From Thiohalocapsa sp. (GTDB taxonomy: Bacteria > Pseudomonadota > Gammaproteobacteria > Chromatiales > Chromatiaceae): a DNA stretch of 64,000 nt. Where the stretch lies: NCBI GenBank assembly GCA_021736785.1, contig JAIPFF010000006.1:62001-126000 (forward strand), in the 5' to 3' direction. The notes below the pieces were generated by a model that saw nothing but the letters and a program-made list of their open reading frames with translations, did not search any database and was not told the origin of the DNA. Both the position numbers and the translations under genes were made by a program. Positions 14,932 to 53,545 of the stretch are shown here, one piece after another. Numbering within the stretch: the first letter of the stretch is position 1; the number at the start of each line of letters is the position of its first letter.

Positions 14932-14970
14932 GATTTTCTTCCTCGTGTCGGGTTGGACCTCCACGCGCCC

Positions 14971-15006
14971 CATGATGCAACCCCCGAGGGGGCACCCGGC
15001 ATCATG
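14971..15006 (-). promoter_or_regulatory. structured leader of rpsB, candidate S2 autoregulatory element
   Basis: In the 5' untranslated region, 40 bases before the rpsB start, an eight-base perfect inverted repeat (CATGATGC at 14971-14978, GCATCATG at 14999-15006) encloses an inner CCCC-CGAG-GGGG hairpin (14982-14991 region). S2 is known to repress rpsB-tsf through the rpsB leader in gammaproteobacteria. Position and structure fit that role. The assignment is by inference, not by sequence match. Confidence 0.5.
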
Positions 15007-15268
15007 TGTCGGCGCGTGTGTGGCGTTGGTTTTTCGACGACTTTACGGAGCCGGCCCGGGTAGGACGGTCCCACGCTGCGGCGGGCGGATTGCGAGCATT
15101 TCGCGGCGCGCGGTCCCCAATAGACGAAACCGGCGGCGGCGTCGCGGTCGGCCTTCCGCATGAGGGTGCGAAGGCGGCACGACAGGAGTTGCAACCGGTG
15201 GGTTTCGTCGGCAGATTCTGGACTGCGGCGCGCAAAGCACAACGAGCATTTGCCCGACCACGCCGCGT

Positions 15269-29633: not shown

Positions 29634-29745
29634 GGCGAGCCTCGCCAGCCACACCCCGGCACCCGCATCCGCCGCTGCGGCTGCTCCCTTCCGGGCCTGA
29701 CCGGGTTCACGGCTTCGCGTTGCGAGGGGACCGGCGCGGCCCACC
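29634..29745 (-). ncRNA. ffs: 4.5S signal recognition particle RNA
   Basis: The minus strand carries the SRP RNA core. The apical loop domain reads GTCAGGCCCGGAAGGGAGCAGC, close to the E. coli GGTCAGGTCCGGAAGGAAGC type. It is preceded by CCCCTCGCAACG and followed by GCCGGGGTGTGGCTGGCG, both matching conserved 4.5S flanks. The termini pair: 5' GGUGGGCCGCGCCGG with 3' CUGGCGAGGCUCGCC (one mismatch plus G-U pairs). This sets the ends at about 29745 and 29634, giving 112 nt. It scaffolds Ffh and directs membrane-protein targeting. Its place beside dnaX is common in gammaproteobacteria. Confidence 0.93.
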
Positions 29746-49384: not shown

Positions 49385-50890
49385 CTAGTCCCCTTCCGAC
49401 TCGGCGAACCAGGGCTCGCGCGCTTTCATAATCAACCGGGCCGCCCGCGCTTCGTCCAGATCTCCGACGCCCACCAGTTCGTCCACGGACTGCTCGGCGA
49501 GATCGTCGACGGTGACGATCCCCCGCTGCGCCAGGGTGTGGGCGAGCGCTTCGTCCATCCCTTCCATTGCCAGCAGTTCTTCGGACGGCTCGGTGTCGAA
49601 GACCGGTTCGTCCTCTGCGCCGGCCTTGGCGATCAGCACGTCCTGCGCACGCTGGCGAAGAATCTCGATCAACTCATCGTCGAACTCCGCGATCGCCTGT
49701 AACTCGTCGACGGGGACGTAGGCGACTTCGTCGATGGTGGTGAAGCCTTCTTCCACCAGCACCGCGGCGACATTTTCGTCGACCTGTAGCTGTTCCATGA
49801 ACGCGGTCGCGATCCGCCGGCCTTCCTCTTCGCTCTTGGCCGCCGCATCTTCCTCGCTCATGACGTTGAGCTCCCAGCCGGTCAGTTGACTGGCGAGACG
49901 GACATTCTGGCCGCCACGGCCGATGGCCTGAGACAGGTTCTCTTCCTTGACGGCGACGTCCATGCTGCGGGCGTCTTCGTCGATAACGATCGAGACGACG
50001 TCCGCGGGGGACATGGCGTTGATGACGAACTGGGCCGGGTTCTCGTCCCACTGAATGATGTCGACGCGCTCGCCGTTGAGCTCGTTGGAAACGGCCTGCA
50101 CGCGCGAGCCGCGCATGCCGACACAGGCGCCGACTGGATCGATGCGCGGATCTTTGGTGCGCACGGCGATCTTCGCGCGCAGACCCGGGTCGCGGGCGGC
50201 GGCGAGAATTTCGATGGTGCCCTCGCCGACCTCCGGGACCTCGAGCTTGAACAGCTCGATCAGCAATTCCGGGGCCGTACGGCTGACGAACAGCTGCGGC
50301 CCTTTCGGCTCGGAGCGTACCTCGTAGAGCAAGCCGCGCAGGCGATCTCCGGGACGCACGTTCTCGCGCGGAATGACTTGATCGCGGGGCACCAGCGCTT
50401 CGGCGTTACCGCCGAGGTCGATGGCGATGGTGCCGCGCTCGGCCTTCTTGACGATGCCGGTAATCAGGTCGCCCTCGCGCTCTTTGAACATCTCCACGAT
50501 CTTCGCGCGCTCGGCTTCGCGCACCTTCTGCACGATGACCTGCTTTGCCGTCTGCGCCGCAATGCGGCCGAAAAGGACCGACTCTATCTCTTCCTCGACG
50601 TAGTCGCCGAGGTCGAGCGAAGGATCGAGCTCCTTTGCAGCGGACAACGTGATCATCCGTTCCGGGGCCTCGAGCGGCTCGCCGTCCTGATCCTCCACGA
50701 CCTCCCAGCGGCGGAACGTATCGTAGTCGCCGCTCTCGCGGTCAATGGCTACCCGGGCCTCGATGTCGCCGCCATGCTTCTTGCGGGTAGCGGACGCGAG
50801 CGCGGCTTCCATCGCCTCGAAAATGATGTCCTTCGGGACATCCTTTTCGTTGGCGACGGCCTCGACCACTTGGAGGATTTCTTTACTCAT
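49385..50890 (-). CDS. nusA: transcription termination/antitermination protein NusA
   Basis: NusA binds RNA polymerase and modulates pausing, termination and antitermination. It comprises the N-terminal polymerase-binding domain ([19 protein letters not shown]), an S1 domain (about 135-200), two KH domains (about 200-345) and two acidic repeats at the C-terminus (AR1/AR2-like, about 370-500; CTD ends [10 protein letters not shown]). The 501 residues are close to E. coli (495). It is 15 bases after rimP. NusA controls rho-independent terminators, so it may regulate its own leader (see 51452-51473 and 51385-51405). Confidence 0.97.
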
Positions 50891-50905
50891 GTATCAAACC
50901 TGCGA

Positions 50906-51364
50906 TCAGAATTCCGGCACCAGCCGAGCGCTGTCGATCAGATCGAACGGCAGTTCCACGCGCTCGCCGTCCACATCCATAAGCACGGTGGGGCCATCCA
51001 CGCCGGCCAGAGTTCCTCGGTAGTTGCGACGCCCCAGCAACTTCGCGGCGAGCTTCACGCGTGCTTCGCTGCCGCGGAAGCGCTCGAACTGCTGCAACGT
51101 AAACAGCGGCCGATCCAGTCCCGGCGAGGACACTTCGAGATCGTAGTTGTCGCTGATGGGATCTTCGACATCGAAAACCCCGCTCAGTTGACGGCTGACC
51201 GTCTCGCAGTCCTCCAGCGTGATGCCCCGTTCATGGTCGATGTAGACACGCAGAACAGTTGCACCCGCACCGGGCTGGACGAGCTCGACGCCCACGAGCT
51301 CGTAGCCCATGGGCTCGACCACGCTTTCGACTAGTAATGTCAACGACGGATTGGCCGTTCGCAT
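50906..51364 (-). CDS. rimP: ribosome maturation factor RimP
   Basis: RimP assists 30S assembly. The 152-residue protein begins MRTANPSLTLLVESVVEPMGYELVGVEL. It has the conserved LRVYIDHERGITLEDCETVSRQLSG and NYDLEVSSPGLDRPLF segments, then the C-terminal SH3-like domain. It is first of the rimP-nusA-infB operon. An intrinsic terminator lies only about 20 bases upstream of its ATG, so expression requires read-through. Confidence 0.96.
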   Translation of the reverse strand: MRTANPSLTLLVESVVEPMGYELVGVELVQPGAGATVLRVYIDHERGITLEDCETVSRQLSGVFDVEDPISDNYDLEVSSPGLDRPLFTLQQFERFRGSEARVKLAAKLLGRRNYRGTLAGVDGPTVLMDVDGERVELPFDLIDSARLVPEF

Positions 51365-51384
51365 CGCGATCTGGCTTCAGAAAC

Positions 51385-51405
51385 AAAAAATGGGCCAGCG
51401 GCCCA
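51385..51405 (-). terminator. intrinsic terminator immediately upstream of rimP
   Basis: Minus-strand stem TGGGCC, loop GCT, GGCCCA, then TTTTTT (complement at 51385-51390). It lies about 20 bases before the rimP ATG and points into rimP. A terminator placed between promoter and first gene is the form of an attenuator. A rimP leader with such an element is a known gammaproteobacterial motif. Confidence 0.85.
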
Positions 51406-51451
51406 ATCACTCGAAACGGCAATTGACCTCTACGGCCAACCGCAGATGACT

Positions 51452-51473
51452 AAAAAAAACCCCGTCATCGGGG
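51452..51473 (-). terminator. first intrinsic terminator in the rimP leader
   Basis: Minus-strand stem CCCCG, loop ATGA, CGGGG, then eight T (complement at 51452-51459). It ends a transcript about 70 bases from the predicted start near 51522, upstream of the second terminator. It could release a small RNA or act as a first attenuation stage. Confidence 0.85.
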
Positions 51474-51482
51474 CCTTACCGC

Positions 51483-51506
51483 TCAAGCCGGAGTCATGGT
51501 CCACAT
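51483..51506 (-). CDS. possible seven-codon leader peptide
   Basis: The minus strand reads ATG to TGA as MWTMTPA, starting about 16 bases after the predicted transcription start and ending ten bases before the first terminator stem. The upstream AGG is a weak ribosome site. Short ORFs before attenuators can couple translation to termination, but a random occurrence is quite possible. Confidence 0.3.
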   Translation of the reverse strand: MWTMTPA

Positions 51507-51511
51507 TGGAG

Positions 51512-51527
51512 CCTAGATAAGCCTAGG
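51512..51527 (-). promoter_or_regulatory. small inverted repeat at the 5' end of the rimP leader
   Basis: CCTAG, six bases, CTAGG. It sits just after the -10 box, over the predicted start, so it may be a 5' hairpin or operator. Five-base arms are modest evidence. Confidence 0.35.
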
Positions 51528-51528
51528 G

Positions 51529-51557
51529 ACTATAGCGGCCGGGAGGACTTCTTGCAA
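51529..51557 (-). promoter_or_regulatory. promoter of the rimP-nusA-infB operon
   Basis: On the minus strand TTGCAA (51552-51557), 17 bases, TATAGT (51529-51534): 4/6 and 5/6 sigma70 matches at ideal spacing. The predicted start is near 51522, giving a leader of about 160 bases that carries both terminators. Confidence 0.7.
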
Positions 51558-51871
51558 GCGGACGTCCGACACGCCAACTTGTCAAAGCGCCATCACCGCC
51601 ACATCCGCTCGGCAAGCACGCTATCGGGGCTGCAGTCACAGGGCCGCCGGCGCTAAGCTTGCTCCGACGCTAGGCGCAACGCCCCCGCCGCGGCACCGCC
51701 CCCATTTGCCGACCGATCGTGTGCCGATGCGCCGGAACGGAGCGAAGGTCGCCGTGCAGGGCGGCCCGGTCCCGCACCCCTTGCACGAAGCATGCGAACG
51801 CGCACCGGTCCCGCTGCCGCGAGCACGCGCCCGCTCCCCGGCAAGCCGAGAATCATCAGAGAGTCGAGATC

Positions 51872-52432
51872 ATGGCCGACGAGGCGGACACCACCGATCA
51901 CGCGAACAACACCCCAGCGCTGATGCGCCAGGCGCATGCGTGCACGCTTGCGTTCCTCGAGCGAGCCCGGCAAGTGACCGGCCACCCCTTGCCCTGCCCC
52001 GTTATCCGCTTCGATCTGCGCGGGCGCAGCGCCGGGCAAGTGCGCATAGCGCGTGACGGCACTTGCACGATCCGCTACAACGCTCGGCTTCTCGAGCGCC
52101 ATCCGGAGGACTTCCTGCACACCACCGTCGCGCATGAGGTCGCGCATTACGCGGCCTACGCGCATTACGGGGGGAATATCCGCCCCCACGGTCCGCAGTG
52201 GCAGGACATCATGCGCGCGCTCGGCGCCGACCCGAGCCGTTGTCATGACTACGACACCGAAGGCCTCGACACACGCCGGCTGCGCCGCCACGTCTACCAC
52301 TGCGCATGCGGCGAGCACTTGCTGACCAGCATTCGACACAACCGCGTACGCCGGGGGACACGCTATTTTTGCCGGCGATGCGGCGAAGCGCTGCGCCCCG
52401 AAGCCGGCGATCGGACCGGCCGCACCCGATGA
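51872..52432 (+). CDS. SprT-like zinc metalloprotease-fold protein
   Basis: The 186-residue product has the SprT family core: HEVAHYAAYAHYGG (HExxH at residues 88-92, with a downstream His in the PHGPQW segment). A C-terminal zinc ribbon has HCACG and FCRRCG. The family includes SprT and the SPRTN proteases; bacterial SprT members are little characterised. The start is ATG 51872; the frame opens earlier but the upstream segment looks non-coding. It stands alone on the plus strand. Confidence 0.85.
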   Translation: MADEADTTDHANNTPALMRQAHACTLAFLERARQVTGHPLPCPVIRFDLRGRSAGQVRIARDGTCTIRYNARLLERHPEDFLHTTVAHEVAHYAAYAHYGGNIRPHGPQWQDIMRALGADPSRCHDYDTEGLDTRRLRRHVYHCACGEHLLTSIRHNRVRRGTRYFCRRCGEALRPEAGDRTGRTR

Positions 52433-52594
52433 GCCGCAACGCGGTGCTGCAACGATCGCACGTCACGCCCCGCCCCGAAGCGAGCAAAGCGCCGAGCGCA
52501 TCGGGGCCGCGCGGCGGCTAATCCGCTCCGTACGCCGCCTTGCCTAAACGCATCGGCGCCCGCCGTGGTGAAAAACAACGCGGCGCGGACGATC

Positions 52595-53545
52595 CTAGTA
52601 TCGGTACATCGGCGTCGGGTACGGGTACGGCGGCTGCGCGCTCGCGGGATATCCAAAAAACGAGGGCGGAGGCGCAACCGGGAAATGCGGCGGCCGGAGC
52701 GGCTGTTGCCAGCGCCGCTGTGCCGCCTCGATGGCTTGAAGTCGGCGGGCGTGATAGGCATCGAGCATCGCGTCCGCCGGTACATCGCCCGCCGCGGTGC
52801 GCTGGGGCATCTCTGCCGCGGGCGGCGCTTGCGCGGGCGGCGCGCCCGCACCCACAGCAGCCGGCGATCCGGCGTCGGCTCCCCCAGCGGCCCCGTCTGC
52901 GGATGCCAAGCCGGACGGCGCCGCTCCGTCCCCCGCGGGGTCATCGCGAGCGGAACCTCCCTCGGCATGCGCACCGACCGACGACTCGGGCTCCTCAGCC
53001 CCGGGCTGGTCCATGACCGAGCGCGCAAACGCCTTGGCCTCTTCGCGGGCGATGGCCCGCGCATCCGCGCTGTCGGCCGCCTGCTCCGCCACGGCAGGCG
53101 CCGGACTGCTGTCGGCGGCATCGGACACAGAATCGGGCGTCGGCCCGGGCGCTTTGCCGCTTGCGGCCTCCTGCACTGCGCCGCGGCCTTCGTCGGAGCC
53201 CGCCGTGGCGGCTTGGACCAAGTCAGGCGCCGGAGACACCGAGGCAATCGGAGCCGCTACCTGCGACGTGGCGACAGGCGTGCCGGCAGCGGTGTCGTCG
53301 GGACTCGGGGCCGGGGCCGGGGCCGGGGAAGCGGCCTCGTGGCTAGCTTGACCGCCGCCGAAACGCTGCAGCAGCCCGGCAAGCCCGGACTGCTCGCCGC
53401 CGGCACCGTCCTGTTCGCCGCGCTCGAGCGAGCCCAAATATAAATAAGCAAACAGGAGCACCAAGCCCCACAAAATCAGTTTCGGCAGAAACCCGAGTCG
53501 AGCGCTCTTCTCGGTATCGGCGTCGGCATTCTCGACGTCTGTCAT
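52595..53545 (-). CDS. membrane-anchored Ala/Pro-rich protein of unknown function
   Basis: The 316-residue product has an acidic cytoplasmic N-terminus and one membrane segment at about 18-38 (LPKLILWGLVLLFAYLYL). A long, disordered Ala/Pro/Ser/Gly-rich acidic region covers about 60-230. An Ala/Arg/Gln helix follows, then a Pro/Tyr/Phe-rich tail ending PTPMYRY. No domain is recognised. Bitopic proteins with low-complexity periplasmic parts can span the wall, but no LysM or SPOR module is seen. The start is ATG 53545. It lies 122 bases after the mtnP stop, on the same strand. Confidence 0.65.
   Translation of the reverse strand: MTDVENADADTEKSARLGFLPKLILWGLVLLFAYLYLGSLERGEQDGAGGEQSGLAGLLQRFGGGQASHEAASPAPAPAPSPDDTAAGTPVATSQVAAPIASVSPAPDLVQAATAGSDEGRGAVQEAASGKAPGPTPDSVSDAADSSPAPAVAEQAADSADARAIAREEAKAFARSVMDQPGAEEPESSVGAHAEGGSARDDPAGDGAAPSGLASADGAAGGADAGSPAAVGAGAPPAQAPPAAEMPQRTAAGDVPADAMLDAYHARRLQAIEAAQRRWQQPLRPPHFPVAPPPSFFGYPASAQPPYPYPTPMYRY

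Follow-up and report, generated by a model that had tools for sequence, protein, structure and literature searches.

Layout of the rimP locus

The stretch of DNA analysed here, referred to as the window, covers 64,000 nucleotides of a Thiohalocapsa genome, and its minus strand carries the genes rimP, nusA and infB in this order, downstream of a promoter-like site and two putative intrinsic terminators, T1 and T2 (Table 1). The rimP gene was named from its translation and its place, and a homologue was found in 35 of 38 relatives; the next two open reading frames, which we take to be nusA and infB, were named from their translations. The nearest named genomes are those of Thiohalocapsa, with 86% identity to the NusA of T. 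marina. The promoter-like site, both hairpins with their T-runs and the distance of about 20 bases to the rimP ATG, all proposed in the initial annotation of this DNA, are present on the minus strand at the positions listed in Table 1. Exactly 20 bases (51384-51365) separate the T-run of T2 from the ATG at 51364, a stretch that, by our reasoning, leaves no room for a promoter, and transcription is expected to start near 51522. Within the window, no gene lies between T1 and T2, and no tRNA gene was found in the full 64 kb.

Table 1. Features of the minus-strand rimP locus and further RNAs of the window (window coordinates).
Feature	Positions	Strand	Remarks
Promoter-like site TTGCAA-17-TATAGT	51557-51529	-	TTGCAA 51557-51552, TATAGT 51534-51529
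Untranslated leader 5' of T1	51522-51478	-	About 45-50 nt; conserved fold not found
T1, intrinsic terminator CCCCG-ATGA-CGGGG + T8	51473-51452	-	Stem-loop 51473-51460, T8 51459-51452
T1-T2 spacer	51451-51406	-	Promoter not detected; predicted 10-pair hairpin
T2, rimP-leader terminator TGGGCC-GCT-GGCCCA + T6	51405-51385	-	Stem-loop 51405-51391, T6 51390-51385
rimP	51364-50906	-	Named from translation and place
nusA (presumed)	50890-49385	-	Named from translation
infB (presumed)	49369-46610	-	Named from translation
t44 RNA (Rfam RF00127)	14952-15040	-	76.1 bits
Bacterial small SRP RNA (RF00169)	29640-29736	-	67.2 bits

A loose terminator scan of positions 50000-53500 returned 6 sites against 2.8 expected (sd 1.9), and by itself it is not convincing. 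Under a strict definition, drawn up after T1 and T2 were already known and demanding a perfect stem of at least 5 pairs with at least 4 G-C, a loop of 3-6 and at least 6 T, exactly two terminators were returned from the 64-kb window, namely T1 and T2, and 60 dinucleotide shuffles of the window yielded a mean of 0.017 strict terminators and no tandem pair. Across the 5.2-Mb assembly, the T2-like pattern occurs 4 times against once for its reversed-pattern control, and the T1-like pattern twice against none. A single sigma-70-like site was found in positions 50000-53500, the one listed in Table 1, where 0.5 were expected. Scored with an approximate promoter weight table, which also served for the T1-T2 stretch and for the relatives, it had no equal when the 150 nt 5' of T1 were block-shuffled 50 times. 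No promoter was detected in the T1-T2 spacer of the window, where the best score had a p of 0.92.

Relation to the known rimP leader

Serial terminators before rimP have been described in other bacteria, and neither the tandem nor the idea of control by NusA is new in view of these earlier published accounts. Naville & Gautheret 2010 (PMC2965389) describe a tandem in which the general rimP-leader, GGGc..gCCC, is preceded by a CCCg..cGGG terminator; they call this leader the most ubiquitous transcription attenuator and name NusA as probably the best candidate for its regulator. In Escherichia coli, t1 and t2 lie upstream of rimP together with the promoters P-1, P0 and P2, and NusA has a role in regulating the rimP-nusA-infB operon (PMC6511841). 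For Streptococcus agalactiae, it is reported that transcription of the rimP-operon leader ends early at a predicted intrinsic terminator, and NusA feedback has been suggested (PMC4448216). A literature search of limited reach, covering few subscription papers, returned no account of the rimP leader in Chromatiaceae.

The window shares the order of the 2010 tandem, CCCg..cGGG followed by GGGc..gCCC, with both elements before rimP. Between metY and rimP, E. coli K-12 carries GCCCCGATTTATCGGGG, followed by six T, and further downstream GGGCTTTAGGCCC, followed by seven T, and the window likewise has a CCCC..GGGG terminator followed by a GGGC..GCCC terminator directly before rimP. The two loci differ in that E. 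coli has metY upstream and three promoters, whereas the window has one detected promoter and lacks an initiator tRNA gene ahead of rimP in the transcription unit, and in that the spacer between the terminators is longer in the window. It had been proposed at first that the second hairpin resembles the known rimP attenuator. T2 does match, but the resemblance is not confined to it, as Rfam RF01770, the 2010 tandem and E. coli t1/t2 all include both hairpins.

No match to Rfam was obtained at the rimP leader of the window at the gathering threshold. With a relaxed threshold, positions 1-102 of the RF01770 model aligned end to end with 51508-51385 of the minus strand, both hairpins being in order and in register, the first as T1 and the second as T2; the score was 28.0 bits against a gathering cut-off of 47, with an E of 0.013 for 401 bases. 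In this covariance comparison, a check suggested in the initial annotation, the leader agrees with the model in architecture and falls short in score. The agreement extends to both hairpins and the order in which they stand, to the GC-rich letters of the cores, to the T-runs and to the place before rimP; the window departs from the model by an insertion of 27 bases that separates the hairpins further and by a 5' part that fits only loosely. In its own genome, the rimP leader is the better of two matches at E<=1 (0.0396 against 0.531). At the same level, RF01770 also matches 8 of 14 control genomes, one of them an archaeon, and under stricter filters a match at E<=0.05 was found in 128 of 274 genomes of the class, many of which carry several matches near 28-30 bits. 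The gathering cut-off was reached by none of the 274 class genomes and by one of the 14 controls. Since weak matches are so common in control and class genomes, the RF01770 match alone is weak evidence, and its E-value was rejected as a sole argument; the identification as a rimP leader is carried by position and order rather than by score. The leader of the window is, in this respect, largely ordinary, a divergent copy of the rimP control leader known from E. coli and its relatives. No new kind of system is revealed; the data from Chromatiaceae extend the tandem rimP leader beyond the reach of the Rfam cut-off.

Conservation in Chromatiaceae and the origin of T1

A RimP match was present in 184 genomes of the family, of which 120 were examined; one (L102), with 28 nt upstream, was dropped, leaving 119 loci with rimP upstream regions of at least 150 nt, with tRNA-Met calls referring to the stretch scanned. 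The labels T1 and T2 were assigned within 450 nt with regular expressions and a score cut of 10; the label patterns require GGGC and GCCC, and the 100% conservation of these letters is therefore built in. The named loci L033-L057 were assessed by visual inspection alone, and no rimP was obtained at L055. T1 followed by T2 is found in 105 of the 119 loci (95 without and 10 with a tRNA-Met call), T2 only in 10, T1 only in 3, and neither in 1. The share of tRNA-less loci reflects an uneven sample, as the last 20 loci were picked mostly from tRNA-less groups; among the first 99, the corresponding counts are 77 with both terminators and no tRNA, 10 with both and a tRNA, 8 with T2 only, 3 with T1 only and 1 with neither. 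The T2 label is assigned in 115 of 119 loci, and at L015, among the other four, a T2-like hairpin was missed by the pattern, and the tRNA is present in truncated form and was not called by ARAGORN. The spacing between T1 and T2 runs from 12 to 214 nt among the first 99 loci. Outside the family, ten loci of the class gave both labels in 4, T2 only in 4, T1 only in 1 and neither in 1. At L031, from another family, rimP is directly preceded, at the place of T2, by a hairpin, GGCCCACG..CGTGGG, and a long T-run.

The loci with a tRNA bear on the probable origin of T1. Of the 10 family loci that have a tRNA, seven place T1 6-11 nt 3' of the initiator tRNA, and in the remaining three (L099, L077, L078) the tRNA stands at least 150 nt before T1. 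Among the 95 tRNA-less loci, a sequence resembling a tRNA 3' end precedes T1 in seven, as counted with a short pattern and without a shuffle control; five of these seven belong to one genus, and some of the calls may be due to chance. The remnant-like sequence at L079, one of the seven, is a 13-base match, GCCCCCGCTACCA. The only initiator-tRNA match in the assembly of the window (L148, G000:C65:46711-46787) is on another contig and is followed by a terminator-like GCCGCT..AGCGGC hairpin and T-run that differs from T1. T1 is probably the former terminator of a lost initiator-tRNA (metY-like) gene. On the simplest reading of these sequences, the tRNA would have been deleted between its own promoter and its own terminator, the direction of change presumably being loss of the tRNA with T1 kept.

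T1 is absent from one clade within the genus of the window. Seven other Thiohalocapsa (L005-L009, L011, L012) have T2 and no T1-like site within 600 nt, and they group together, with a support of 100/99, in a tree built from 12 NusA sequences. The window, T. marina and a Lamprobacter/Halochromatium pair, all of which have T1, fall outside this group. A single loss of T1 is the simplest reading of this tree, in which 6 of 9 inner branches are left open and the root is a midpoint root only. Retention of T2 without T1 in these seven genomes means that T1 is dispensable.

Promoter-like sites were scanned 5' of T1 in 86 family loci, those without both terminators and one with less than 100 nt before T1 being left out, and between T1 and T2 in 80, six with a T1-T2 stretch of less than 35 nt being omitted. 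At p<=0.1, a site lies 5' of T1 in 63 of 86 loci, mostly of the form TTGnnn with a 17-nt spacer, and no clear promoter was seen there in the other 23. Between T1 and T2, a site at the same level was detected in only 4 of 80, and the mean score was no higher than that of shuffles.

These observations also bear on an unlikely alternative, in which T1 is the leftover terminator of a vanished tRNA unit, or the end of a separate small RNA, and T2 alone regulates the operon. The position of T1 right behind the initiator tRNA and the well-supported Thiohalocapsa group that keeps T2 without it are both what a leftover would produce, and the listing of the rimP leader among ProQ-associated RNAs derived from attenuators favours a separate small RNA. 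In our judgement, though, the presence of T1 in 95 tRNA-less loci is more than a relic would predict, and the scarcity of promoters between T1 and T2 means that T1 has to be traversed by any transcript starting at the detected promoter. What argues against a small RNA, including the stand-alone RNA of about 70 nt considered in the initial annotation, is the leader 5' of T1 itself, which aligns between genera only in patches and shows little mean excess structure in the folding described below.

Leader folding and control of the operon

Among 93 loci that have both terminators and no tRNA, 49 have a promoter-like site 44-60 nt 5' of T1; these reduced to 37 non-redundant leaders, of which 34 were folded, three (L062, L064, L132) being left out for reasons unrelated to the results. 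Against 100 mononucleotide shuffles per leader, the region 5' of T1 has a mean z of -0.51 in the 34 leaders (range about -3.9 to +1.6); in the window, z is -0.13 for this region and -1.20 when T1 is included. T1 is intact in the minimum-energy fold of all 34 Chromatiaceae leaders, and pairing its 5' arm with upstream sequence gains at most 3.6 kcal/mol. No antiterminator competing with T1 was found in the 34 leaders folded, the gain in the window itself being 0.0 kcal/mol, which differs from the 2010 tandem, for which a clear potential antiterminator is reported (PMC2965389). A search for a conserved leader fold with RNAalifold in 25 hand-chosen sequences returned only a three-pair stem inside T1. 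Because T1 stays intact throughout, the gain from upstream pairing is small and the leaders have little excess structure, a ligand-type switch at T1 is unlikely under these folding models, and control by termination factors would fit better. In the spacer and T2 of the window (51451-51384), z is -2.53, with 3 of 200 shuffles as good and T2 intact; the hairpin predicted in the spacer has 10 pairs.

The proximity of T2 to rimP raises a further alternative, namely that T2 and its U-rich tail are mainly a translation or mRNA-stability element near the rimP start rather than a terminator. In 78 of 95 loci no more than 57 nt separate T2 from the rimP start, the T-rich stretch after it is strongly conserved, and no strong Shine-Dalgarno sequence is apparent by eye in the 20 bases 5' of the rimP ATG of the window, all of which would suit such an element. 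In the seven T1-less Thiohalocapsa, however, 109-261 nt lie between the end of the T2 stem and the rimP start, and the core and tail of T2 are nearly identical in flanks that look unlike; T2 thus need not be near the ATG. A T-run follows T2 in every labelled locus, as expected of a terminator, though detection required it. Taken with the rest, this alternative is very improbable.

The reading we prefer, with a probability of roughly 0.7, is that the locus represents the form which the known rimP leader of gammaproteobacteria takes in Chromatiaceae, with serial readthrough of T1 and T2, control of the NusA type, and a T1 derived from a lost tRNA. One promoter would drive a short untranslated leader, in which RNA polymerase would encounter T1 first and T2 second, and rimP-nusA-infB and the genes behind would be transcribed only by those polymerases that read through both. 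Termination in the cell and its efficiency are what we infer from the form of these sequences, and a short RNA ending at T1 is expected. Two-stage attenuation of the operon, as the initial annotation had envisaged with two terminators in series and no gene between them, is likely on sequence grounds; nested attenuation is the best reading since the window has one promoter-like site, neither a gene nor a detectable promoter separates T1 from T2, and the pair recurs in 105 of 119 loci. As transcripts from the detected promoter must pass both terminators, the readthrough fractions of T1 and T2 should multiply.

Readthrough would probably be set by general termination factors, NusA foremost, which would place the operon under negative feedback; by analogy with E. 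coli, such feedback of NusA on rimP-nusA-infB is plausible. Cold-shock proteins would be a second candidate; for CspA, CspC and CspE, a lowering of termination has been reported at a terminator that lies inside the metY-rpsO operon (PMC9765468). After the loss of the metY-like gene, its terminator T1 may have become the first attenuator stage. What these loci add is that the tandem persists where no tRNA adjoins it and where T1 has no obvious antiterminator. A more far-reaching version remains speculative: many Chromatiaceae would have recruited the terminator of a deleted initiator tRNA gene as the first stage of two attenuators in series, both served by a single promoter, with no antiterminator for T1 and with NusA acting twice, making the feedback steeper than with one terminator. 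If this serial take-over is true, the T1-less Thiohalocapsa clade would offer a natural single-stage comparison. Sister lineages, some with one terminator and some with both, make the idea of NusA feedback easier to test.

Two minor features of the leaders were noted in subgroups. By eye, a possible GGA..GGCGG / CGCC.UCC leader hairpin can be made out in one subgroup. A CTTAAGGA-like stretch recurs in a subgroup of the tRNA-less Chromatiaceae (L089, L093, L111, L114, L115, L122 and similar loci) at the expected transcript start, just 3' of the -10 box, where the window has GGCTTATC.
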